A stretch of 16,618 bases of DNA. Source: Campylobacteraceae bacterium (lineage in GTDB: Bacteria; Campylobacterota; Campylobacteria; Campylobacterales; Sulfurospirillaceae). A program made the translations under genes and the position numbers. The stretch is taken from contig JALUMJ010000166.1 of assembly GCA_027040375.1 (NCBI GenBank), positions 7,444-24,061 of the forward strand, in the 5' to 3' direction. Under the pieces are notes generated by a model. It had not been told where the DNA came from, made no database searches, and saw only the letters and a program-made list of their open reading frames with translations. Each line of letters opens with the position of its first letter. The stretch's first letter is position 1. This document shows, piece after piece, positions 53 through 16,618 of the stretch.

Positions 53-175
53 TCTCGCCAAAGGCGTAGCTTTAGTGAGGAAGTTTGAAATGTAAACCCT
101 TCTCGCCAAAGGCGTAGCTTTAGTGAGGAAGTTTGAAATGTAAACCCTTCTCGCCAAAGGCGTAGCTTTAGTGAG
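53..175. repeat. 48-bp tandem direct repeat with palindromic core (2.6 copies)
   Basis: Two identical 48-bp units lie at 53-100 and 101-148, followed by the first 27 bp of a third at 149-175. Each unit begins with a core of about 27 bp (53-79, 101-127, 149-175) and ends with a 21-bp linker (80-100, 128-148). The core is an imperfect palindrome: TCTCGC pairs with GTGAGA or GTGAGG (one G-U pair), then after a mismatch AAAG pairs with CTTT. It also contains the small alternative hairpin CGCC-AAA-GGCG. A degenerate linker-like piece (GTTTAAAACATAAATC, 35-50) precedes copy 1. The repeats fill the nusG-rplK gap and would be transcribed in the operon leader. There are no variable spacers and no coding frame. 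The function is unknown; it may be an intergenic palindromic element or a local tandem expansion. Confidence 0.9.
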
Positions 176-180
176 ATGAA

Positions 181-207
181 TTTTATATGGGCTTTGCTCA
201 TATAAAA
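181..207 (+). promoter_or_regulatory. Stem-loop in the rplK leader
   Basis: TTTTATATG at 181-189 is perfectly complementary to CATATAAAA at 199-207. The inner bases extend the stem (G190-U198 wobble, G191-C197, C192-G196) around a TTT loop at 193-195, giving a 12-pair stem. No U-tract follows on either strand, so it is not a classical intrinsic terminator. It ends 32 nt before the rplK start codon and just upstream of the ribosome binding site (AAGGAA, 227-232). Its position fits an mRNA processing site or a translational control element such as an L1 target, but nothing in the sequence proves either. Confidence 0.6.
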
Positions 208-239
208 GAAGAAATAAAAATGAAAGAAGGAATTATAAT

Positions 240-665
240 ATGGCTAAGAAAGTAATTGGCGAAATAAAATTACAAATTGCAGCAGCAAAAGCTAATCCAT
301 CACCTCCAGTTGGTCCAGCACTTGGACAACAAGGCGTGAATATTATGGAATTTTGTAAAGCATTTAATGAAAAAACAAAAGATATGATGGGATATAATAT
401 TCCAGTAGTTATCACAGTATATGCAGATAGAAGTTTCACTTTTATCACAAAACAGCCACCAGCAAGTGATTTGATTAAAAAAGCAGCTGGCATTAAAAAA
501 GGCAGTGATAATCCTTTGAAAAATAAAATTGCAAATTTAACTAAAGAACAAGTTCTATCTATAGTTGAGCAAAAGATAGCAGACCTTAATACTGACGATA
601 GAGAAGCAGCATCTAAGATTATTGCGGGAAGTGCTAGAAGTATGGGAATAACTGTTTCAGAGTAA
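240..665 (+). CDS. rplK: 50S ribosomal protein L11
   Basis: This 141-residue protein is the normal length for bacterial L11. The conserved N-terminal segment [22 protein letters not shown] sits at about residues 22-43 and carries the hinge prolines that contact thiopeptides and 23S rRNA. The C-terminal rRNA-binding domain includes the AAGIKKGS stretch and the ending [10 protein letters not shown]11 binds the GTPase-associated centre of 23S rRNA and helps EF-G and EF-Tu function and RelA activation. The ATG at 240 has a good ribosome binding site (AAGGAA, 227-232). The gene is first after nusG and is separated from rplA by 60 bp containing a hairpin. Confidence 0.98.
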
Positions 666-682
666 AAATTGTTAAACCTTAA

Positions 683-699
683 CCACTAAGGATTAGTGG
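683..699 (+). promoter_or_regulatory. Stem-loop between rplK and rplA
   Basis: CCACTAA (683-689) and TTAGTGG (693-699) form a perfect 7-bp stem with a GGA loop. A competing pairing of CCTTA just upstream with TAAGG (687-691) would be mutually exclusive. The hairpin ends 14 nt before the rplA ribosome binding site (GGAGAT, 715-720). No U-tract follows; the downstream run is A-rich. It may be an mRNA processing or expression-tuning element. Confidence 0.5.
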
Positions 700-725
700 A
701 AGCAAAAAAAATGCGGAGATAAATA

Positions 726-1430
726 ATGGGAAATAAAATTAATAAAAGAATTCAAGAACTTCAAAAAAAAGTAGATTTTGAAAAGATATATAAGATGGAA
801 GAAGCTCTTGCAAATATTAAAAATTTAGCAAGTGCAAAATTTGATGAAACGATTGAAGTAGCATTGAAATTAAATGTTGATCCAAGACATGCAGACCAAA
901 TGGTAAGAGGCTCTGTAGTCCTTCCTGCTGGAACTGGTAAAAATGTTAGAGTTGCAGTTGTCGCAAAAGATGCTAAAGCTGATGAAGCAAAAGCAGCTGG
1001 AGCTGATATCGTTGGAAGTGACGAGTTGATTGCAGATATTCAAGCTGGTAAAATTGATTTTGATGTACTAATAGCTACTCCAAATATGATGGGTATGGTA
1101 GGTAAAGTTGGTAGAATTTTGGGACCAAAAGGTATCATGCCAAATCCAAAGACTGGTACAGTTACTATGGATGTTGCAAAAGCAGTAGAAAACTCAAAAG
1201 GCGGACAAGTAAACTTTAGAGTTGATAAACAAGGTAATGTACAAGCTGGTATAGGAAAAATTAGTTTCACAAATGAACAAATAAAAGAAAATTTTGAAAC
1301 ATTTATAAAAGCAATAAACAAACAAAAACCAGCAGCTTCAAAAGGTAAATATATAAAAACTGCTGCAATATCTCTAACAATGAGTCCATCATTGTCGCTT
1401 GATAACCAAGAATTGATTGATTTTAAATAA
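726..1430 (+). CDS. rplA: 50S ribosomal protein L1
   Basis: The 234-residue product is the usual L1 length. The signature [19 protein letters not shown] lies at about residues 123-141, followed by TGTVT and the [14 protein letters not shown] segment of the rRNA-binding domain. L1 binds helices 76-78 of 23S rRNA, forms the mobile stalk that moves deacylated tRNA out of the E site, and in many bacteria represses the rplK-rplA mRNA. The ATG at 726 follows GGAGAT at 715-720. A short terminator-like hairpin lies 7 bp past the stop, before the rplJ leader. Confidence 0.98.
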
Positions 1431-1436
1431 ATAACT

Positions 1437-1457
1437 AAAGCTGCATTTGCAGCTTTT
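1437..1457 (+). terminator. Terminator-like hairpin after rplA
   Basis: AAAGCTGCA (1437-1445) pairs perfectly with TGCAGCTTT (1448-1456), and one more T follows before the sequence turns A-rich. The 9-bp stem ends in a short T run (TTTT, 1454-1457). It sits between the rplA stop and the candidate L10 leader, so it is more likely a partial terminator or processing site than a full stop, since rplJ must still be transcribed. The short T-tract makes its strength uncertain. Confidence 0.55.
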
Positions 1458-1465
1458 AAAAATCT

Positions 1466-1545
1466 TGATTGGAGATAGCCGAGGCTTAGGCTTAATTTGG
1501 AATTTTCCATCTCTGCTTGAAATCACCGGTCGGAAAGGAGAAAAA
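1466..1545 (+). promoter_or_regulatory. Candidate L10 autoregulatory leader of rplJ-rplL
   Basis: The rplJ untranslated leader can fold as a three-way junction. GAGAT (1472-1476) pairs with ATCTC (1509-1513) as the closing stem, AGCC (1477-1480) pairs with GGCT (1489-1492), and GGAA (1499-1502) pairs with TTCC (1505-1508). Bacterial rplJ leaders bind the L10-(L7/L12) complex through a structured element of this kind to repress translation. The ribosome binding site AAAGGAG (1534-1540) lies just downstream, where such a fold could control it. The fold was worked out by eye; the match to the known L10 leader family is inferred from position and architecture. Confidence 0.6.
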
Positions 1546-2025
1546 TTGACAAGAAATAAAAAGATAGAAATAGTTGAAGAATTAACTGCTAGTTTTAAAG
1601 CTTCCGACGCATTTGTTGTTTGTGATTTTAAAGGACTTGACACTATATCTATAGAAGCATTGAGAAATGCTGCTAGAGAAGTAAATGTAAGTGTTCGTAT
1701 TGCAAAAAATACTTTAGCAACAATAGCTATGAAAAATGCTGAAATTGAAGGTATTAGCCTTAAAGACACAAATATGTTTGTTTGGGGCGAAGATCAACTA
1801 GATGTTACAAAAGTTGTAGCTAAATATGCTGAGAAAAATAAGAACTTTACTATAAGAACAGGTTTCATCGCTGGTGAAATAGTTGATGTTGCTAAGATTG
1901 AAGCATTATCTAAATTGCCTTCAAGAGATGAGCTTATTGGTATGTTACTTCAAACTTGGATGGCTCCAGTTACAAACTTTACAATCGGTTTGGATGCACT
2001 AAGAGCTAAAAAAGAAGAAGCATAA
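1546..2025 (+). CDS. rplJ: 50S ribosomal protein L10
   Basis: From the TTG at 1546 this gives 159 residues beginning MTRNKKIEIVEELTASFKAS, a normal L10 N-terminus. The frame extends upstream to an ATG at 1447, but that extension would translate the structured leader and reads as non-conserved sequence. The TTG is preceded at 5 bp by a near-perfect AAAGGAG (1534-1540), so I choose it. L10 is the base of the L7/L12 stalk: its N-terminal domain binds 23S rRNA beside L11 and its C-terminal helix carries L7/L12 dimers. The family segment DFKGLDTISIEALR and the later RIAKNTLATIA are present. A 58-bp gap with a hairpin separates it from rplL. Confidence 0.95.
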   Translation: MTRNKKIEIVEELTASFKASDAFVVCDFKGLDTISIEALRNAAREVNVSVRIAKNTLATIAMKNAEIEGISLKDTNMFVWGEDQLDVTKVVAKYAEKNKNFTIRTGFIAGEIVDVAKIEALSKLPSRDELIGMLLQTWMAPVTNFTIGLDALRAKKEEA

Positions 2026-2037
2026 TAATTTAAAAAT

Positions 2038-2056
2038 TTAACCATGATGTGGTTAA
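2038..2056 (+). promoter_or_regulatory. Stem-loop between rplJ and rplL
   Basis: TTAACCA (2038-2044) and TGGTTAA (2050-2056) form a perfect 7-bp stem around a TGATG loop. It lies 12 nt after the rplJ stop and before the rplL ribosome binding site (AAAGGAAAG, 2068-2076). No U-tract follows. Since L7/L12 is needed in several copies per ribosome, an element that stabilises or processes the mRNA here would make sense, but that is inference. Confidence 0.5.
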
Positions 2057-2083
2057 TATAAAAATATAAAAGGAAAGATAAAA

Positions 2084-2455
2084 ATGGCAATAACTAAAGA
2101 AGATGTATTAGAATACATTTCAGGTCTATCAGTACTTGAATTAAGTGAATTAGTAAAAGAATTTGAAGAAAAATTTGGTGTATCTGCTGCTCCAGTTATG
2201 ATGGCAGGTGCTGCCGGTGGCGACGCTGCTGCTGCAGAAGAAAAAACAGAATTTGATGTTATTCTTAAAAGTGCAGGCGCTAAGAAAATCAATGCTATTA
2301 AAGTAGTAAGAGCTATTACTGGTCTTGGCTTAAAAGAAGCAAAAGAAGCAGTTGAAAGTGCTCCAACTACATTAAAAGAAGGTGTTTCTAAAGACGAAGC
2401 TGAAGATATCAAAAAGCAAGTTGAAGAAGCTGGCGCGGAAGCTGAAATTAAATAA
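2084..2455 (+). CDS. rplL: 50S ribosomal protein L7/L12
   Basis: The 123-residue product has the three expected parts: an N-terminal dimerisation helix region (about 1-33, with [20 protein letters not shown]), an alanine/glycine-rich flexible hinge (about 36-52) and a C-terminal factor-binding domain. The latter contains [20 protein letters not shown] and the following EAVESAP, the surface that recruits EF-G, EF-Tu and IF2. The start at 2084 follows AAAGGAAAG at 2068-2076. L7/L12 is present in multiple dimers on L10. The gene is followed by a strong GC-containing hairpin before rpoB. Confidence 0.98.
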
Positions 2456-2463
2456 AACAATAC

Positions 2464-2484
2464 TCAGGGAGAAATTCTCCCTGA
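2464..2484 (+). terminator. Attenuator-like hairpin between rplL and rpoB
   Basis: TCAGGGAGAA (2464-2473) and TTCTCCCTGA (2475-2484) are perfect reverse complements, giving an effective 8-bp stem with a small A/T loop. The downstream sequence (TATATATTAAAAT) lacks a solid U-tract, so termination is probably partial. In E. coli the rplL-rpoB gap carries a transcription attenuator that reduces polymerase subunit synthesis relative to ribosomal proteins. The same position and form here suggest an equivalent role. Confidence 0.7.
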
Positions 2485-2538
2485 TATATATTAAAATATT
2501 AGATATAAAAATTTCTGTAATAAAACAGTCAAACTGCT

Positions 2539-2564
2539 ATGAGTTTGCAGATTTGCAATCTCAT
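2539..2564 (+). promoter_or_regulatory. Leader stem-loop upstream of rpoB
   Basis: ATGAG at 2539-2543 pairs with CTCAT at 2560-2564. After one T-T mismatch, TTGCA (2545-2549) pairs with TGCAA (2554-2558), and a G-T pair closes a two-base loop. A competing 6-bp hairpin (CAAACT 2530-2535 with AGTTTG 2542-2547) uses some of the same bases, so the two are mutually exclusive. The element sits 22 nt before the rpoB ribosome binding site AGG (2587-2589). Two alternative folds just before the beta-subunit gene could act as a switch, but this comes only from by-eye pairing. Confidence 0.45.
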
Positions 2565-2575
2565 CACCCTTATAA

Positions 2576-11259
<8,684 letters not shown>

Positions 11260-11262
11260 TAA

Positions 11263-11288
11263 AAAAGGCATATTTATATATGCCTTTT
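11263..11288 (+). terminator. Intrinsic terminator-like hairpin after rpoC
   Basis: AAAAGGCATAT (11263-11273) pairs perfectly with ATATGCCTTTT (11278-11288) around a TTAT loop, 3 bp after the rpoC stop. The 3' arm supplies only a four-T tract, then AACCCTCTTTT follows. The stem has just three GC pairs, so it may be a leaky terminator that lets some transcription continue into rpsL-rpsG-fusA. Confidence 0.65.
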
Positions 11289-11301
11289 AACCCTCTTTTA
11301 A

Positions 11302-11322
11302 GCTATTTTTAAATAAAATAGC
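11302..11322. promoter_or_regulatory. Inverted repeat overlapping a possible rpsL promoter
   Basis: GCTATTTT (11302-11309) and AAAATAGC (11315-11322) are perfect reverse complements with a TAAAT spacer. The right arm contains TAAAAT (11314-11319), a plausible -10 box after a T-rich stretch, as is common in Campylobacter promoters that lack a clear -35. If used, transcription would start near 11326 and the next large hairpin would form the 5' end of the rpsL mRNA. Promoter use is inference. Confidence 0.35.
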
Positions 11323-11329
11323 AGGCTTC

Positions 11330-11374
11330 ATTGCTTACACTCCATGGTTAAATTAACTATGAAGTGTAAGCAAT
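11330..11374 (+). promoter_or_regulatory. Long imperfect hairpin in the rpsL leader
   Basis: ATTGCTTACACT (11330-11341) is perfectly complementary to AGTGTAAGCAAT (11363-11374). Inside this, after one C-A mismatch, CAT pairs with ATG, G with T, and GTTAA (11347-11351) with TTAAC (11353-11357). The whole 45 nt is therefore nearly one continuous stem. It ends 14 nt before the rpsL ribosome binding site (AAGGAA, 11389-11394). It could be an mRNA-stabilising 5' hairpin, a ribosomal-protein operator, or a DNA-level operator palindrome; the sequence does not decide between these. Confidence 0.65.
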
Positions 11375-11399
11375 TATGAAAAATATATAAGGAAATGAT

Positions 11400-11774
11400 G
11401 TGCCAACAATTAACCAATTGGTAAGAAAAGAAAGAAAAAAGGTGATTAAGAAATCTAAATCTCCTGCATTGGTAGGGTGTCCTCAAAGAAGAGGGGTTTG
11501 TACGAGAGTTTATACAACTACTCCAAAAAAACCAAACTCTGCTTTGAGAAAAGTTGCTAAGGTAAGACTAACTAGCGGATTTGAAGTTATTAGTTATATC
11601 GGCGGTGAAGGCCATAACTTACAAGAACACTCTATTGTTCTAGTTCGTGGCGGTAGAATCAAAGATTTACCTGGTGTTAAGTATCATATAGTTCGTGGAG
11701 CCTTGGATACTGCTGGTGTTGCAAACAGAACTGTTGCAAGAAGTAAATACGGTACTAAAAAACCCAAAAAATAA
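11400..11774 (+). CDS. rpsL: 30S ribosomal protein S12
   Basis: The 124-residue product starts [14 protein letters not shown] and is typical of S12. The decoding-centre loop [13 protein letters not shown] is intact with K43 and K44, and the second loop [14 protein letters not shown] keeps K88, D89 and P91. None of the classic streptomycin-resistance substitutions is present. The start codon is GTG at 11400, placed 5 bp after AAGGAA (11389-11394). ATG triplets at 11395 and 11398 are in a different frame that ends after nine codons. S12 sits at the decoding site of the small subunit and controls accuracy. It is the first gene of the rpsL-rpsG-fusA set. Confidence 0.98.
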
Positions 11775-11800
11775 AATAAAATAATATAAATTTATCAAAC

Positions 11801-11831
11801 AGGTGCTATCCTTTGAATGTAGATAGTATTT
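11801..11831 (+). promoter_or_regulatory. Stem-loop between rpsL and rpsG
   Basis: AGGTGCTATC (11801-11810) can pair with GATAGTATTT (11822-11831) as a 10-pair stem with three G-U pairs and an 11-nt loop. It lies in the 88-bp gap before rpsG. In E. coli the rpsL-rpsG gap is the site where S7 represses its own operon, so a similar role is possible here. The wobble pairs make the fold less certain. Confidence 0.4.
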
Positions 11832-11844
11832 GAGTAAAATTTAG

Positions 11845-12333
<489 letters not shown>

Positions 12334-12345
12334 AAAGGAATAATT

Positions 12346-14424
12346 ATGCCAAGAAAACATCCTATTAATATGGTTAGAAATATCGGAATTGCCGCGCATA
12401 TTGATGCTGGTAAAACAACTACAACTGAGCGAATACTTTTTTATACTGGTATTTCACATAAAATCGGTGAAGTTCATGATGGCGCTGCTACTATGGACTG
12501 GATGGAACAAGAAAAAGAGAGAGGAATCACAATTACAAGTGCTGCTACTACATGTGAGTGGGATAATCATCAAATAAATATCATAGATACTCCAGGCCAT
12601 GTTGACTTTACTATTGAAGTTGAGCGAAGTATGAGAGTTCTTGATGGTGCAGTTGCAGTTTTTTGTGCAGTTGGTGGAGTTCAACCTCAAAGTGAAACAG
12701 TTTGGAGACAAGCAAATAGATATAAAGTTCCAAGAATGGTTTTTGTAAACAAAATGGATAGAGTTGGAGCTGATTTTTATGAAGTTGAAAAACAGATAAA
12801 AGAGAGATTAAAATCTAACCCAGTACCAATTCAGATACCAATCGGAGCAGAAGATAACTTCAAAGGTGTTGTTGATTTAGTTAAAATGAAAGCCCTTGTT
12901 TGGGAAGATGAGGCTGCTATGGGTTCACACTATGAAGTAGTAGATATTCCTGCTGATTTGCAAGAAAAAGCTGAAAAATATAGAGAACATATGATTGAGT
13001 CTATATCAGAAACTACTGATGAATTACTTGAAAAATACCTAGGCGGTGAAGAGCTTAGTGAAGATGAAATCAAAGCAGGACTGAAAGCTGGATGTCTAGA
13101 GATGACACTTGTCCCGATGTTGTGTGGAACTGCATTTAAAAACAAAGGTGTTCAGCCATTGCTTGACGCTGTTGTTGATTATATGCCAGCTCCTACAGAA
13201 GTGGCAGCTATCAAAGGCGAATACGAAGATGGAAGTGAAACTGTTGTAGATTCAAGCGATGATGGTGAATTTGCCGCACTTGCTTTTAAAATTATGACTG
13301 ATCCATTTGTTGGTCAATTAACATTTGTTAGAGTATATCGTGGAAGTCTTGAGAGTGGAAGTTATACTTATAATACTACAAAAGATAAAAAAGAGAGAGT
13401 TGGAAGACTCCTAAAAATGCACTCAAATAAAAGAGAAGAGATTAAAAAACTACACGCTGGTGAAATTGGTGCTGTTGTAGGTCTAAAAGATACGCTAACA
13501 GGAGATACACTCGCTGGTGATAAAGATAGAGTAATCCTAGAAAAGATGGACTTTCCAGATCCAGTTATCAGTGTTGCAGTTGAACCAAAAACTAAGGCTG
13601 ACCAAGAAAAGATGGGTATCGCACTTCAAAAACTAGCTCAAGAAGATCCTAGTTTTAGAGTTGAAACTGATGAAGAAAGTGGTCAGACAATTATCTCAGG
13701 TATGGGCGAATTGCACCTTGAAATTTTGGTTGATAGAATGCTTAGAGAATTTACTGTTGATGCCGAAGTTGGACAACCACAAGTTGCTTATAGAGAAACA
13801 ATCAAAAAAGAAGTAACACAAGAGCATAAATATGCTAAGCAATCAGGTGGTAGAGGACAGTATGGTCATGTATATATCAAACTTACTCCACTAAAACCAG
13901 GTGAGGGTTATGAATTTATAAATGATATCAAAGGTGGTTCAATTCCTAGAGAATTTATCCCAGCAGTTGATAAAGGTATAAAAGAAGCCATGCAAGGCGG
14001 TGTTCTTGCTGGTTATCCTGTTGAAGATGTCAAAGTTACGCTTTATGATGGAAGTTATCATGATGTGGATTCAAGTGAGATGGCATTTAAACTTGCAGCT
14101 TCTATGGCATTTAAAGAAGGTGCTAGAAAAGCTGACGCTATTATACTTGAGCCTATGATGAAAGTTGAAGTTGAAACTCCTGAAGATTTTATGGGAGATG
14201 TAATCGGCGACTTAAACAGAAGAAGAGGGCAAATCAGCTCTATGAGTGATAGAAGTGGCAACAAGATTGTTGATGCCTTTTGTCCACTCTCAGAGATGTT
14301 TGGATATTCAACAGATTTAAGAAGTCAAACTCAAGGAAGAGCTTCATACTCAATGGAATTTGACCATTATGCAGAAGTTCCAAGAAATGTTGCAGAAGAG
14401 ATTATCAAAAAGAGAAACGCTTAG
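12346..14424 (+). CDS. fusA: Translation elongation factor G
   Basis: The 692-residue product is full length for EF-G. GTPase motifs are in order: G1 AHIDAGKTT (17-25), G2 RGIT (59-62), G3 DTPGH (81-85), G4 NKMD (135-138), and a G5-type GTAFKNKGV further on. Later domains include the [14 protein letters not shown] segment of domain III, the [11 protein letters not shown] of domain IV and the C-terminal [21 protein letters not shown] (domain V) region. EF-G uses GTP to drive translocation of tRNAs and mRNA on the ribosome. AAAGGAAT precedes the ATG. No tuf gene follows, as expected when tuf is located elsewhere. A strong intrinsic terminator closes the gene. Confidence 0.99.
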
Positions 14425-14435
14425 TTTGAAAAATT

Positions 14436-14476
14436 AAAAAGCTAGGCATCTCTTTTGAGATGTCCTAGCTTTTTTT
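14436..14476 (+). terminator. Intrinsic terminator after fusA
   Basis: AAAAAGCTAGG (14436-14446) pairs with CCTAGCTTTTT (14464-14474), and the inner CATCTC (14447-14452) pairs with GAGATG (14457-14462) around a TTTT loop, with a single unpaired T at 14463. A run of eight T (14469-14476) follows the stem. This is the strongest terminator in the window and marks the end of the translation-gene block, 9 bp before the tRNA. Confidence 0.9.
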
Positions 14477-14485
14477 ATGCCTTTT

Positions 14486-14562
14486 GTCCTCGTAGCTCAG
14501 CAGGATAGAGCACTTGATTCCTAATCAAGAGGCCACAAGTTCGAATCTTGTCGGGGACACCA
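14486..14562 (+). tRNA. tRNA-Arg, anticodon CCU
   Basis: A full 77-nt cloverleaf is visible. The acceptor arms GTCCTCG (14486-14492) and CGGGGAC (14552-14558) pair with one T-G wobble. The D stem is GCTC/GAGC, and the anticodon stem is CTTGA/TCAAG with loop TTCCTAA, giving anticodon CCT at 14520-14522, which reads AGG. The T arm is ACAAG-TTCGAAT-CTTGT. A discriminator A and encoded CCA end the gene. It lies just after the fusA terminator, and the next coding start is only 15 nt beyond the CCA. No clear promoter is seen in the 9 bp between terminator and tRNA, so its transcription may depend on read-through or on a promoter overlapping the terminator. Confidence 0.97.
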
Positions 14563-14577
14563 CTCTTAGGAATAAAA

Positions 14578-14871
14578 ATGTTGATCAAAAATTTTTACAA
14601 AATTATATCTAAAGATAAAAATAGAGTCACTATAAAACTTTGCGATGAAAATCACCCAATATTTAAAGCTCATTTTCCAACAAATCCTATAATGCCAGGA
14701 TTTACAAATTTTGAAATAATTTCCCAAATATTTGACAAAGAAATTACAACAATAAAAAAAGCAAAATTCCTAAAACTAATCAAGCCAAACCAAATTTTAA
14801 TTTATGAAAAAAACAAAAATAACTATAAAGTTATCTGCGAAAACGAAATGGTTGCAAGCATATGCCTATGA
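14578..14871 (+). CDS. Hotdog-fold 3-hydroxyacyl-ACP dehydratase (FabZ/ApeI-like)
   Basis: This 97-residue protein carries the FabZ-family signature HPIFKAHFPTNPIMPGF at about residues 26-42. The catalytic pair is in place: H32 of AHFP and E46 in NFEIISQ, 14 residues apart as in FabZ. Ala replaces the usual Gly before the His. A later AKFLKLIKP segment matches the family's VKFRRPVxPG strand. Such enzymes dehydrate 3-hydroxyacyl-ACP; small stand-alone versions (ApeI type) occur in aryl-polyene clusters. I start at the ATG at 14578, with TTAGGAA just upstream; a TTG at 14548 is inside the tRNA and is rejected. It is short and lysine-rich (15 Lys), and overlaps the glycosyltransferase by ATGA. 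Confidence 0.75.
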   Translation: MLIKNFYKIISKDKNRVTIKLCDENHPIFKAHFPTNPIMPGFTNFEIISQIFDKEITTIKKAKFLKLIKPNQILIYEKNKNNYKVICENEMVASICL

Positions 14872-15554
14872 AAAGTTGTGTCGTTATTCCTGTTTATAAT
14901 TCACCATATATAAACGAAGTTATCAAAGATGTTTTAACCCTAAATTATGAAATCATAGTAGTAGATGACGGATCTGATAATGGAATAAAAATTAATGATT
15001 CAAATATACATTTGATTACTCATAAACAAAACAGAGGCAAGGGTGAAGCGATACTAAGTGGTGCTAAAAAAGCAAAAGAGTTAGGATATAAATTTTTTGT
15101 CACAATGGATGCTGATAAACAGCATATTAGCACAGAAATTTTTAAACTTGTAGATGTTTTGGAGGAAAATTGTATAATCATAGGAAGCCGTAATTTTGAA
15201 GAAGAAAATGTTCCAAAAAGCTCAATATTTGGGAGAAAATTTAGTAATTTTTGGGTGAATTTAGAGACATTTAAAAGTTTGAAAGACACTCAAAGTGGTT
15301 TTAGAATTTATCCCACAACCATACTTGATTTAAATATAAAAAAAAGAAGATTTGATTTTGAAATAGAGGTTTTAGTTCTTCATTGTTTTAGCGGTGGAAA
15401 GGTAAAAGAAGTTGATGTTGAGTGTTATTATCCGCCACCCAAAAAGAGAATTTCACACTTTGATAAAGTAAAAGACAATTTTCGTCTAAGTTGTATTCAT
15501 TCTAAACTTGTGATGCAGCGATTCTTGCTTCTTCGTGGCTTTTTGTGGAATTAA
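14868..15554 (+). CDS. Family 2 glycosyltransferase
   Basis: From 14868 this gives 228 residues of GT-A fold. The N-terminal CVVIPVYNS is followed by the nucleotide-binding VVDDGSDNG (31-39), NRGKGEAILSGAKKAKELGY, and the metal-binding DAD at 81-83 (FVTMDADKQH). GSRNF (106-110) and the acceptor-side DTQSGFRIYP (140-149) follow. The arrangement resembles dolichyl/polyprenyl-phosphate sugar transferases and the glycosyltransferases found in aryl-polyene clusters. No membrane segment is evident. An ATG two codons earlier (14862) is possible, but 14868 forms a 4-bp ATGA overlap with the dehydratase stop, typical of coupling. It probably adds a sugar to a lipid or polyene-linked acceptor; the substrate is not determined. 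Confidence 0.85.
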   Translation: MKSCVVIPVYNSPYINEVIKDVLTLNYEIIVVDDGSDNGIKINDSNIHLITHKQNRGKGEAILSGAKKAKELGYKFFVTMDADKQHISTEIFKLVDVLEENCIIIGSRNFEEENVPKSSIFGRKFSNFWVNLETFKSLKDTQSGFRIYPTTILDLNIKKRRFDFEIEVLVLHCFSGGKVKEVDVECYYPPPKKRISHFDKVKDNFRLSCIHSKLVMQRFLLLRGFLWN

Positions 15555-15577
15555 TAAAAGCTTAATTGCACTTAGTG

Positions 15578-15583
15578 TAAAAT
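15578..15583 (+). promoter_or_regulatory. Possible -10 box upstream of the DarA-like gene
   Basis: TAAAAT preceded by TG lies 29 bp before the DarA-like start codon in the only non-overlapping gap of the accessory gene set (58 bp). No convincing -35 is seen, which is common in Campylobacter-type promoters. It may allow separate transcription of the DarA/DarB pair, but the AT-rich context makes chance matches likely. Confidence 0.25.
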
Positions 15584-15612
15584 ATAGACTCATATAAAAA
15601 ATAAAGATACGC

Positions 15613-16524
15613 ATGAAAAAAGTTTTAGTTTTATATTATTCACAATCTGGTCAGTTAAAAAGTGTAGTTGATAGCTTTATTTCTAAACTCAATGATGATG
15701 ATATAATAGTTGATGTAAAATCTATTAAGCCAACCACTTCATATCCTTATCCGTGGTCATTTTATGAATTTTTTGATGAATTTCCTGATGCCGCTCGCAT
15801 GAGAGGATGTGAGGTTAAAAAGTTGGAAAATCTTGAAGATGATTATGATTTGATTGTGCTGGGGTACACTATTTGGTTTTTGGCTCCTTCATCTCCTATT
15901 GTTGGATTTTTGAAGTCATCCCAAGCAAAAAAGATTTTTAAAGATAAACCAGTCGTTACCTTGATAGCTTGTAGAGATATGTGGGTGATGGCTCAAGAAA
16001 AAGTCAAAAAGTTGCTTAGCAATGTTGATGCAAAACTGATTGACAATGTTGCATTGACTGACCAAGGTAAAGGTATATACTCTTTTGCTACGACTCCTAG
16101 GTGGCTTTTAAGTGGAAAGAAAGATGCTTTTTGGATTTTTCCACCTGCTGGGATTTTGCAAAAGGATATAGACGATGCTTCAAGATTTGGACAAAGACTA
16201 AATGAGGCGCTAAAGCAAGATAAAGAAAAAGAGGGTAAACCACTTTTAAAAAACCTAAATGCAGTTTGTGTGAATGGAAAATTAATCGCTTCAGAGATGA
16301 TAGGAACTAGAAGTTTTTATATCTGGAGTAAAATTATAGATTTTTGTGGCAAGAAAAAAACGATAAGCAGAAAAATTGCCATTACGGTTTATGCTGTTTT
16401 CTTAGCTTTGATGGTTTTTACAGTAGTGCCTATAAATATAATAGTAAGAAAGATTTTAAACAGTTTTCAAAAAGATAAATTAAAAGAGTTAGAAAAAAAA
16501 TACGAGGAACCAAGCGGTAGATGA
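15613..16524 (+). CDS. DarA-like flavodoxin-fold protein (dialkylresorcinol pathway)
   Basis: The 303-residue product opens with VLVLYYSQSGQLKSVVDSF (4-22), a flavodoxin-type first strand and phosphate-binding loop, followed by YDLIVLGYTIWFLAPSSPIVGFL in two parts (78-100), the flavin-contact region, and VVTLIACRDMWVMAQEKV (114-131). After about 200 residues it departs from ordinary flavodoxins and ends with a hydrophobic stretch at about 255-278, then a charged tail, suggesting membrane anchoring. This plan matches DarA proteins, which act with the ketosynthase DarB in making dialkylresorcinols, where DarA is thought to aromatise the cyclohexanedione product. The following gene looks like darB and overlaps by ATGA. 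The ribosome binding site is weak. A generic NAD(P)H-dependent oxidoreductase is the main alternative. Confidence 0.72.
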   Translation: MKKVLVLYYSQSGQLKSVVDSFISKLNDDDIIVDVKSIKPTTSYPYPWSFYEFFDEFPDAARMRGCEVKKLENLEDDYDLIVLGYTIWFLAPSSPIVGFLKSSQAKKIFKDKPVVTLIACRDMWVMAQEKVKKLLSNVDAKLIDNVALTDQGKGIYSFATTPRWLLSGKKDAFWIFPPAGILQKDIDDASRFGQRLNEALKQDKEKEGKPLLKNLNAVCVNGKLIASEMIGTRSFYIWSKIIDFCGKKKTISRKIAITVYAVFLALMVFTVVPINIIVRKILNSFQKDKLKELEKKYEEPSGR

Positions 16525-16618
16525 GCGAAGTATATATAAACAACATTGCAGCATTTTTTCCAAATGATGCGGTAGATAATGACAACATAGAAAATGTTTT
16601 AGGTGTGATTGATGGAAA
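16521..16618 (+). CDS. KAS III-like ketosynthase, DarB-like (N-terminal part, runs off window)
   Basis: An ATG at 16521 overlaps the stop of the preceding gene by 4 bp and opens a frame that stays open to the window end (32 complete codons). It reads MSEVYINNIAAFFPNDAVDN and then DNIENVLGVIDG. Ketoacyl-ACP synthase III-like proteins start with a similar YI..I..(F/Y)LPN..V.N..IE..LG pattern, and DarB proteins continue with a GGKPSR-type motif just where this window stops. DarB condenses two beta-ketoacyl units to a cyclohexanedione. The catalytic Cys-His-Asn residues lie outside the window, so the call rests on the N-terminus and the DarA-like neighbour. Confidence 0.65.
   Translation, partial: MSEVYINNIAAFFPNDAVDNDNIENVLGVIDG

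Follow-up and report, generated by a model that had tools for sequence, protein, structure and literature searches.

Probable front end of a flexirubin-type dialkylresorcinol and aryl-polyene gene cluster in a Campylobacterota genome

Four genes at a contig end

The DNA analysed here is a stretch of 16,618 nucleotides (the window; G000:C166:7444-24061, contig JALUMJ010000166.1) from a Campylobacteraceae bacterium of the Sulfurospirillaceae, whose assembly (GCA_027040375.1, G000 below) comprises 1.67 Mb in 224 contigs and is 91% complete. At its downstream end, behind a tRNA-Arg(CCT) gene, lie four consecutive genes for a small dehydratase, a family 2 glycosyltransferase (GT2), a DarA-like protein and the beginning of a DarB-like ketosynthase (Table 1). 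A preliminary description of this DNA had read them as the start of a flexirubin-like aryl-polyene/dialkylresorcinol (DAR) cluster. Their identities and succession were borne out by profile searches and coordinates, and the reading itself is supported by the cluster genes of relatives and, in part, of the same genome. Judged from sequence, the four genes are very probably the front end of a flexirubin-type cluster that combines DAR with aryl-polyene (APE) genes. Contig C166 terminates at the last base of the window, leaving only the first 98 bases of darB, and the downstream genes were therefore looked for on other contigs and in relatives.

Table 1. Features at the downstream end of the window
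Feature	Position	Strand	Basis or remark
tRNA-Arg(CCT)	14486..14562	+	Immediately ahead of the cluster
ApeI/FabZ-like hot-dog dehydratase, 97 aa, with His32 and Glu46	14578..14871	+	Profile searches, model, Foldseek
GT2 glycosyltransferase, corresponding to the first part of E. coli ApeJ	14868..15554	+	PF00535; ATGA overlap with the dehydratase gene
DarA-like protein: flavodoxin domain and C-terminal hydrophobic helix; predicted resorcinol-forming aromatase	15613..16524	+	
darB 5' end (StlD/DarB ketosynthase), cut by the contig end	16521..16618	+	ATGA overlap with darA

The dehydratase matches the FabA-like domain PF07977 with 25.8 bits (cut-off 23) and the FabZ models at E values of about 2e-8, but with 34-35 bits against equivalog cut-offs of 113-155. 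The His-Glu pair that had been claimed for it is present, with a separation of 14 residues, which we take to be the FabZ spacing. In an alignment of 16 relatives the histidine is invariant, and the acid is Glu in seven and Asp in nine. Its structural model (pLDDT 93.4) retrieved FabZ structures at the top of the Foldseek list and the ApeI:P complex 6qsr at rank 14. The GT2 protein matches PF00535 with 74.5 bits, and a congener's GT2 is 36% identical to E. coli ApeJ over 226 aa.

The DarA-like protein gives a weak Flavodoxin_4 match (20.4 bits; cut-off 24). Its model (pLDDT 86.5) has a flavodoxin fold (3edo_B, TM 0.74 by target) followed by a long C-terminal helix with hydrophobic residues; the first two places of its Foldseek list go to receptor entries, presumably flavodoxin fusions. 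Several of its homologues carry the source name 'dialkylresorcinol condensing enzyme', which NCBI annotation uses for the DarA homologues of such metagenome-assembled genomes (MAGs). For DarB, the 32 residues encoded in the window match both NCBIfam DarB models at E values of about 1e-7. The full-length DarB of congener G006 scores 566 bits with the StlD/DarB family (cut-off 450) and 74-86 bits with the FabH/KAS III models, its best solved structure is StlD (5gk0, 417 bits), and the Cys-His-Asn motifs are kept in 14 of 14 loci. The last gene thus falls in the StlD/DarB family and not with FabH, the placement that the preliminary description had named as the alternative. An identity of the last two genes as FabH and an ordinary flavodoxin was ruled out by the StlD/DarB scores, the StlD structure match and the DarA fold model.

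The genes are tightly packed. ATGA overlaps are found at two of the three junctions, as had been noted earlier, while the GT2 and DarA genes are spaced by 58 bases; the GT2 start at 14868 was set from relatives. The dehydratase gene follows the tRNA after 15 bases. A terminator-like hairpin lies at 14445-14464, between fusA and the tRNA (two such sites were found, with 0.8 expected), and no terminator-like site is listed between the tRNA and the dehydratase gene; the cluster may therefore be transcribed through from upstream. By eye, positions 240-14424 of the window hold an rplK-rplA-rplJ-rplL-rpoB-rpoC-rpsL-rpsG-fusA block directly ahead of the cluster, an unusual address for secondary metabolism.

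The cluster in congeners and elsewhere in the genome

Congeners carry the cluster as a one-strand run, intact in G008 from the dehydratase to the MMPL gene (the contig continues; it was covered to MMPL) and extending in G005 to an AMP ligase, a second acyl carrier protein (ACP) and a 118-aa protein. The order is dehydratase, GT2, DarA, DarB, DarG, DarH, ABC ATPase, ABC permease, ACP, ketosynthase (KS) and a 262-aa protein (KS'); then KS, chain-length factor (CLF, 215 aa), lyase, ketoreductase, membrane protein (180 aa), PlsC, LolA-like protein and MMPL; and, after MMPL, AMP ligase, ACP and the 118-aa protein. The preliminary description had proposed reading the next 10-15 kb for KS, ACP, acyltransferase, AMP ligase, LolA-like and MMPL genes. 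The own contig ends before any such stretch, whereas in the relatives all of them follow in the same direction.

NCBIfam assigns the G006 proteins to the DarG (162 bits; cut-off 70) and DarH (490 bits; cut-off 300) families, and PlsC (PF01553) was found in G008, not in the own assembly. The MMPL and LolA-like calls rest on position and on weak blastp matches to ApeM (E 2e-6) and ApeL (E 0.007), the LolA-like protein having no Pfam match. The 118-aa protein sits at the place of the second dehydratase, for which it is a candidate; it has no Pfam match over the cut-off and no match to ApeP. In a comparison of the APE part with solved structures, the second-best entry was 6qsp, which we take to be ApeO. 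Two observations stand beside this gene order. A 262-aa protein, conserved in L022:7722-8510 and relatives between two ketosynthases and at the place of Azoarcus darK, is perhaps a worn ketosynthase partner; it has no Pfam match and no NCBIfam match at 1e-5. In G005 (L030:5203-7272) the darA frame is broken in two and the start of darB is missing, through either a real break or an assembly error.

In the own genome, a DNA search with the G008 cluster matched contigs C22 (4096 bp, 74% identity) and C157 (66-67%). C22 holds a KS piece, an ApeC-like chain-length factor (a KS N-domain protein), the ammonia-lyase, the ketoreductase and the membrane protein. On C157 the final part of the LolA-like gene comes with an inserted class IV aminotransferase gene, MMPL and an AMP ligase. 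The aminotransferase gene (L073:319-1182), between the LolA-like and MMPL genes, is not at that place in G008 or G005. Dehydratase, KS piece, CLF, ketoreductase and AMP ligase are thus present in the own genome, where ACP and a second dehydratase were not seen. Across this genome and its congeners, the genes that mark an APE cluster were found: KS with CLF, ketoreductase, dehydratases, ACP and AMP ligase, with acyltransferase, LolA-like and MMPL proteins.

Distribution, loss and a link to pigment

DarA was found in 14 of the 60 genomes searched, the own included. In a sample of 397 genomes drawn evenly from Campylobacterota, DarH exceeded its cut-off in 21, from 13 of 68 genera, which places DAR genes in six families; the 14 named control genomes gave no match. 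Within the window's family DarH was found in 15 of 44 genomes, a count in which the own genome is scored negative because of its assembly gap. Three further genomes of the same family encode a ketosynthase with 49-51% identity to that of the polyene part (G028:C1:2819698-2820777, G030:C1:2731989-2733068 and G013:C7:87014-88087), and since DarA and DarH were unmatched there, they likely carry APE genes without dar genes.

Among the ten genomes of the window's genus, five of which could be tied to metagenome assemblies, DarA is present in six (G000, G003, G004, G005, G006 and G008), remnants persist in two and two have none, showing repeated loss of the cluster within one genus. G002, rated 100% complete, keeps the dehydratase gene and a GT2 gene cut short (L126:1-1352), and none of the remaining cluster was matched there; by eye, with no search made, a transposase-like gene follows the shortened GT2. 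In G007 (90% complete) the dehydratase gene survives along with what by eye is a decayed GT2 sequence, behind which another gene lies. In G001 (92% complete) the DNA search gave only short matches or none, and a ketosynthase search gave one partial match resembling housekeeping FabF.

The cluster lies directly behind tRNA-Arg in G000 and G008, while a chemoreceptor gene intervenes in G006; in G005 it is on a contig other than that of fusA. For G003 and G004, contig ends hide where it lies. Immediately ahead of its dehydratase gene, G007 (L132:275-1584) carries an integrase of the phage type (PF00589) and a partial copy of tRNA-Arg(CCT), 59 bp from the 3' end at 92% identity. A similar partial copy of 59 bp (88% identical), with identical bases upstream of it, is found in G001 (L133:5-63). 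From these copies and the integrase, the tRNA gene serves in this genus as an insertion site for an integrative element, adjoining the cluster. The idea that the tRNA brought the cluster in was dropped, as what the 59-bp repeats show is an inserted element in G007 (before the dehydratase) and one in G001, and not how the cluster came in.

Two types separate in a darB tree built from 42 sequences, five of them plasmid-borne outgroups. Type A (support 96) unites the window's genus, genus g5 and other Campylobacterota MAGs, and type B (support 100) unites four genomes of the genus of Sulfurospirillum deleyianum, two of family f9 and L104. Both types occur within the window's family, a sign of at least one transfer or replacement. 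Sequences from Psychromonas, Vibrio, Aliivibrio and Photobacterium form one group (96) within type A, next to MAGs that bear the label Helicobacteraceae (supports of 61, 91 and 98 at the nodes leading down to it), and an unrooted tree of concatenated DarA-DarB-DarH from 32 loci is compatible with this. The darB tree gives no direction of transfer with the Vibrionaceae, since chromosomal Bacteroidota and most of the Pseudomonadota are absent from it and a scan biased towards the window's DarA supplied many of its sequences. When plasmids were searched with DarH and DarB, distant relatives alone turned up, all below 60% identity. On plasmids of Bacteroides, Prevotella and Phocaeicola (L138, L139, L140), StlD/DarB-type genes stand beside helix-turn-helix or TetR-type regulators, possibly as small-molecule signal modules; no darA is annotated beside them in the stretches covered.

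A link to pigment comes from S. deleyianum, a member of the window's family. Colonies of strain 5175T are described as yellow from a flexirubin-type pigment (PMC3035281). We identified genome G018, a single contig of 2,306,351 bp, as this strain. Between 2,108,118 and 2,132,154, interspersed with some unrelated genes, it has matches to 20 of the 22 reference cluster genes; PlsC and the LolA-like gene are the two without a match. Its type B cluster, with a DarA 46% identical, has darA-B-G-H with the second KS, CLF and ACP on one strand, and ABC-ACP-KS and dehydratase-GT2-lyase-ketoreductase-MMPL-ligase on the opposite one; a 312-aa protein matches part of ApeJ. Beside the AMP ligase, on the other strand, lies a lipoprotein-like gene (L027:3516-3920) whose product is 38% identical to E. 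coli ApeA over 131 aa, and by eye only, similar genes stand beside the AMP ligase at L073:5150-6082 and L096:4462-5433. Genome G009 of the window's genus, a single contig of 2,377,931 bp, was matched to Sulfurospirillum sp. 1612, a strain placed by GTDB in an unknown genus (PMC13209400). The cluster has no match in it, and the ketosynthase search gave one partial match resembling housekeeping FabF. Strain 1612 is listed as whitish and S. deleyianum as yellow (PMC11406935, Table 1). Colour and cluster therefore agree in two of two strains that could be tied to a genome and have a stated colour, an agreement and not a proof, and one that leaves out S. arcachonense (whitish) and S. barnesii (no colour given).

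The preliminary description had noted that such clusters are best known from Bacteroidetes and gamma/betaproteobacteria. With the S. deleyianum report (PMC3035281), a flexirubin-type pigment was already on record in this lineage, and the idea that this is its first sign in the phylum was dropped. Among the papers listed by searches of open PMC full text, no title or opening of an abstract describes the cluster itself in Campylobacterota, nor do the parts checked of PMC6562949, PMC10132072, PMC11406935 and PMC13209400; this does not prove absence, as subscription papers, supplementary tables and four papers with both an aryl-polyene and a Campylobacterota term (PMC12282196, PMC13055281, PMC9177762, PMC10558695) lie outside this scope. 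The present data supply candidate genes for the pigment reported in S. deleyianum. Flexirubins are a chemotaxonomic trait of Bacteroidota (PMC3992019). A cultured yellow species with DAR and APE genes and a cultured whitish strain lacking them, both in one family, make the link between genes and pigment, and a role of the pigment at oxic-sulfidic borders, testable.

Alternatives, proposed pathway and known systems

Several results weigh against reading the genes as a flexirubin-type cluster. Bases 88-6858 of the G008 query (~6.8 kb, covering the rest of darB, DarG, DarH, both ABC genes, ACP, the first KS, KS' and the start of the second KS) and bases 10988-11902 (~0.9 kb, the PlsC region) have no DNA match in the own assembly. 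No protein match to DarH was found in the own genome, and the DarB family search there returned the C166 piece only, plus weak C174 matches taken as FabH. A full cluster in this genome is therefore assumed from the congeners. The remnants in G002 and G007 indicate that the cluster is dispensable. The pigment of S. deleyianum is indirect support only, since its cluster is of the other type, with a DarA 46% identical. Finally, the window's lineage stays below the NCBIfam flexirubin cut-offs for FlxA (326 of 700 bits), FlxB (262 of 340) and flexirubin DarG (114 of 170), as does G018 (343, 239 and 104 bits), and both miss the narrow DarB model NF053539 resorcinol_DarB (550 bits; 494.9 for G006 and 502.3 for G018). 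Because the FlxA, FlxB and DarG equivalog cut-offs are missed, we class the cluster as flexirubin-type but outside the Bacteroidota flexirubin clade.

The missing ~6.8 kb, and the dehydratase with shortened or degraded GT2 that survives in G002 and G007, could speak for decay in this organism too, with front and back genes kept and the middle lost somewhat as in those genomes. We consider decay improbable: darA is undamaged, darB stays open as far as the contig end, the parts on C22 and C157 are open and 66-74% identical to G008, and what is missing falls at contig ends of a 91%-complete genome in 224 pieces. Free dialkylresorcinols occur in other bacteria, and lone darB-type genes stand beside regulators on Bacteroidales plasmids, so the dar genes might instead make a free signal or antimicrobial with the polyene genes as mere neighbours. 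That dar and ape genes share one strand with DarG, DarH and transporters, and that G018, matched to a strain whose pigment is reported as flexirubin-type (PMC3035281), carries both sets, makes this very improbable. Chance adjacency of housekeeping genes (an ordinary FabZ piece, a flavodoxin and FabH) has the weak Pfam matches of the dehydratase and flavodoxin in its favour; it can scarcely be entertained given the DarB scores of G006 and a block kept across families. A flexirubin-type cluster thus remains our preferred reading.

Under this reading, an aromatic amino-acid ammonia-lyase would form an arylacrylic acid, which the AMP ligase would load onto ACP, and the KS/CLF pair, the ketoreductase and small dehydratases (one being the window's first gene) would elongate it to a polyene. 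DarB would join two fatty-acid-like thioesters to a cyclohexanedione, to be aromatised to DAR by an FMN-type DarA. DarH, GT2 and PlsC are thought to link or anchor the products, and the ABC pair, LolA-like and MMPL proteins may carry the lipid to the outer membrane, where it would probably act as an antioxidant membrane pigment in microaerobic sulfidic habitats. The roles of the GT2, acyltransferase, LolA-like protein and exporter follow the proposal for E. coli (PMC8253772). This pathway draws on the genes, their order, family membership, intact catalytic motifs and distribution; the product, its ester link, the colour of this organism and the role of the pigment are predictions.

The Ala-Ser-Gly motif of the lyase is kept in all 14 loci that cover it, out of 15 (L029 is cut). 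Aligned with Anabaena phenylalanine ammonia-lyase (PAL; presumably 3czo), which has Phe-Leu, and tyrosine aminomutase, which has Ser-His, the selectivity pair reads Phe-Cys in 8 of 14 loci and Phe-His in 6. A Phe at the first position is PAL-like, so the polyene head group may come from an amino acid other than tyrosine. This is a weak prediction, because one motif of FlxA is reported to resemble that of histidine ammonia-lyase (HAL) although the enzyme is a tyrosine ammonia-lyase (PMC3992019). A joint reading is conceivable, if on balance doubtful, in which Campylobacterota hold an old flexirubin-type system of two lineages, the changed lyase pocket of the window's type (Phe-Cys, not Phe-His) leads to a polyene with another head group, such as one from phenylalanine, and the Vibrionaceae dar genes derive from this side.

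Among known systems, the aryl-polyene cluster of E. coli CFT073 (L107; PMC8253772) has blastp counterparts (E<=0.05) for ApeI, J, E, F, O, R, C, Q, D, L and M, and for ApeH, in a protein set drawn from G008, C157 of the own genome and G005, with the ApeL match only at the E value given above; ApeA, B, G, K, N and P have none in that set. The E. coli cluster lists no dar genes and no ammonia-lyase, and its ApeJ is fused where GT2 stands alone here. In Vibrio, Aliivibrio and Photobacterium the dar loci encode a DarA 58-60% identical, and L051 and L053 share the order darA-B-G-H-ABC-ABC-ACP-KS-KS', though these 20.9-kb stretches show no match to the second KS, CLF, lyase or ketoreductase. The flexirubin clusters of Chitinophaga pinensis and Flavobacterium johnsoniae share darA, darB, a HAL-like ammonia-lyase, acyl ligase, several ketosynthases, reductase and dehydratases, as well as acyltransferase, LolA, glycosyltransferase and exporter (PMC3992019). 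C. pinensis has two separate clusters against the single run here (PMC3992019), and no methyltransferase is among the genes identified in L022 and L030/L096.

The arcuflavin genes of Azoarcus sp. BH72 (PMC3949708) differ in two extra genes in the block (with prevent-host-death and PilT domain annotations), in polyene genes at two other loci and in a starter from a XanB2-type chorismatase rather than an ammonia-lyase. Their BtrH-like gene is darE in the Azoarcus naming, DarG and DarH belonging to the separate NCBI scheme. The order is otherwise alike, with darA, darB, a conserved hypothetical gene, the BtrH-like gene, ABC ATPase, ABC permease, ACP, ketosynthase and a hypothetical gene (PMC3949708). 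Hence, contrary to the earlier suggestion that order and content may depart from described clusters, most of the gene content and the dar order match those already described.

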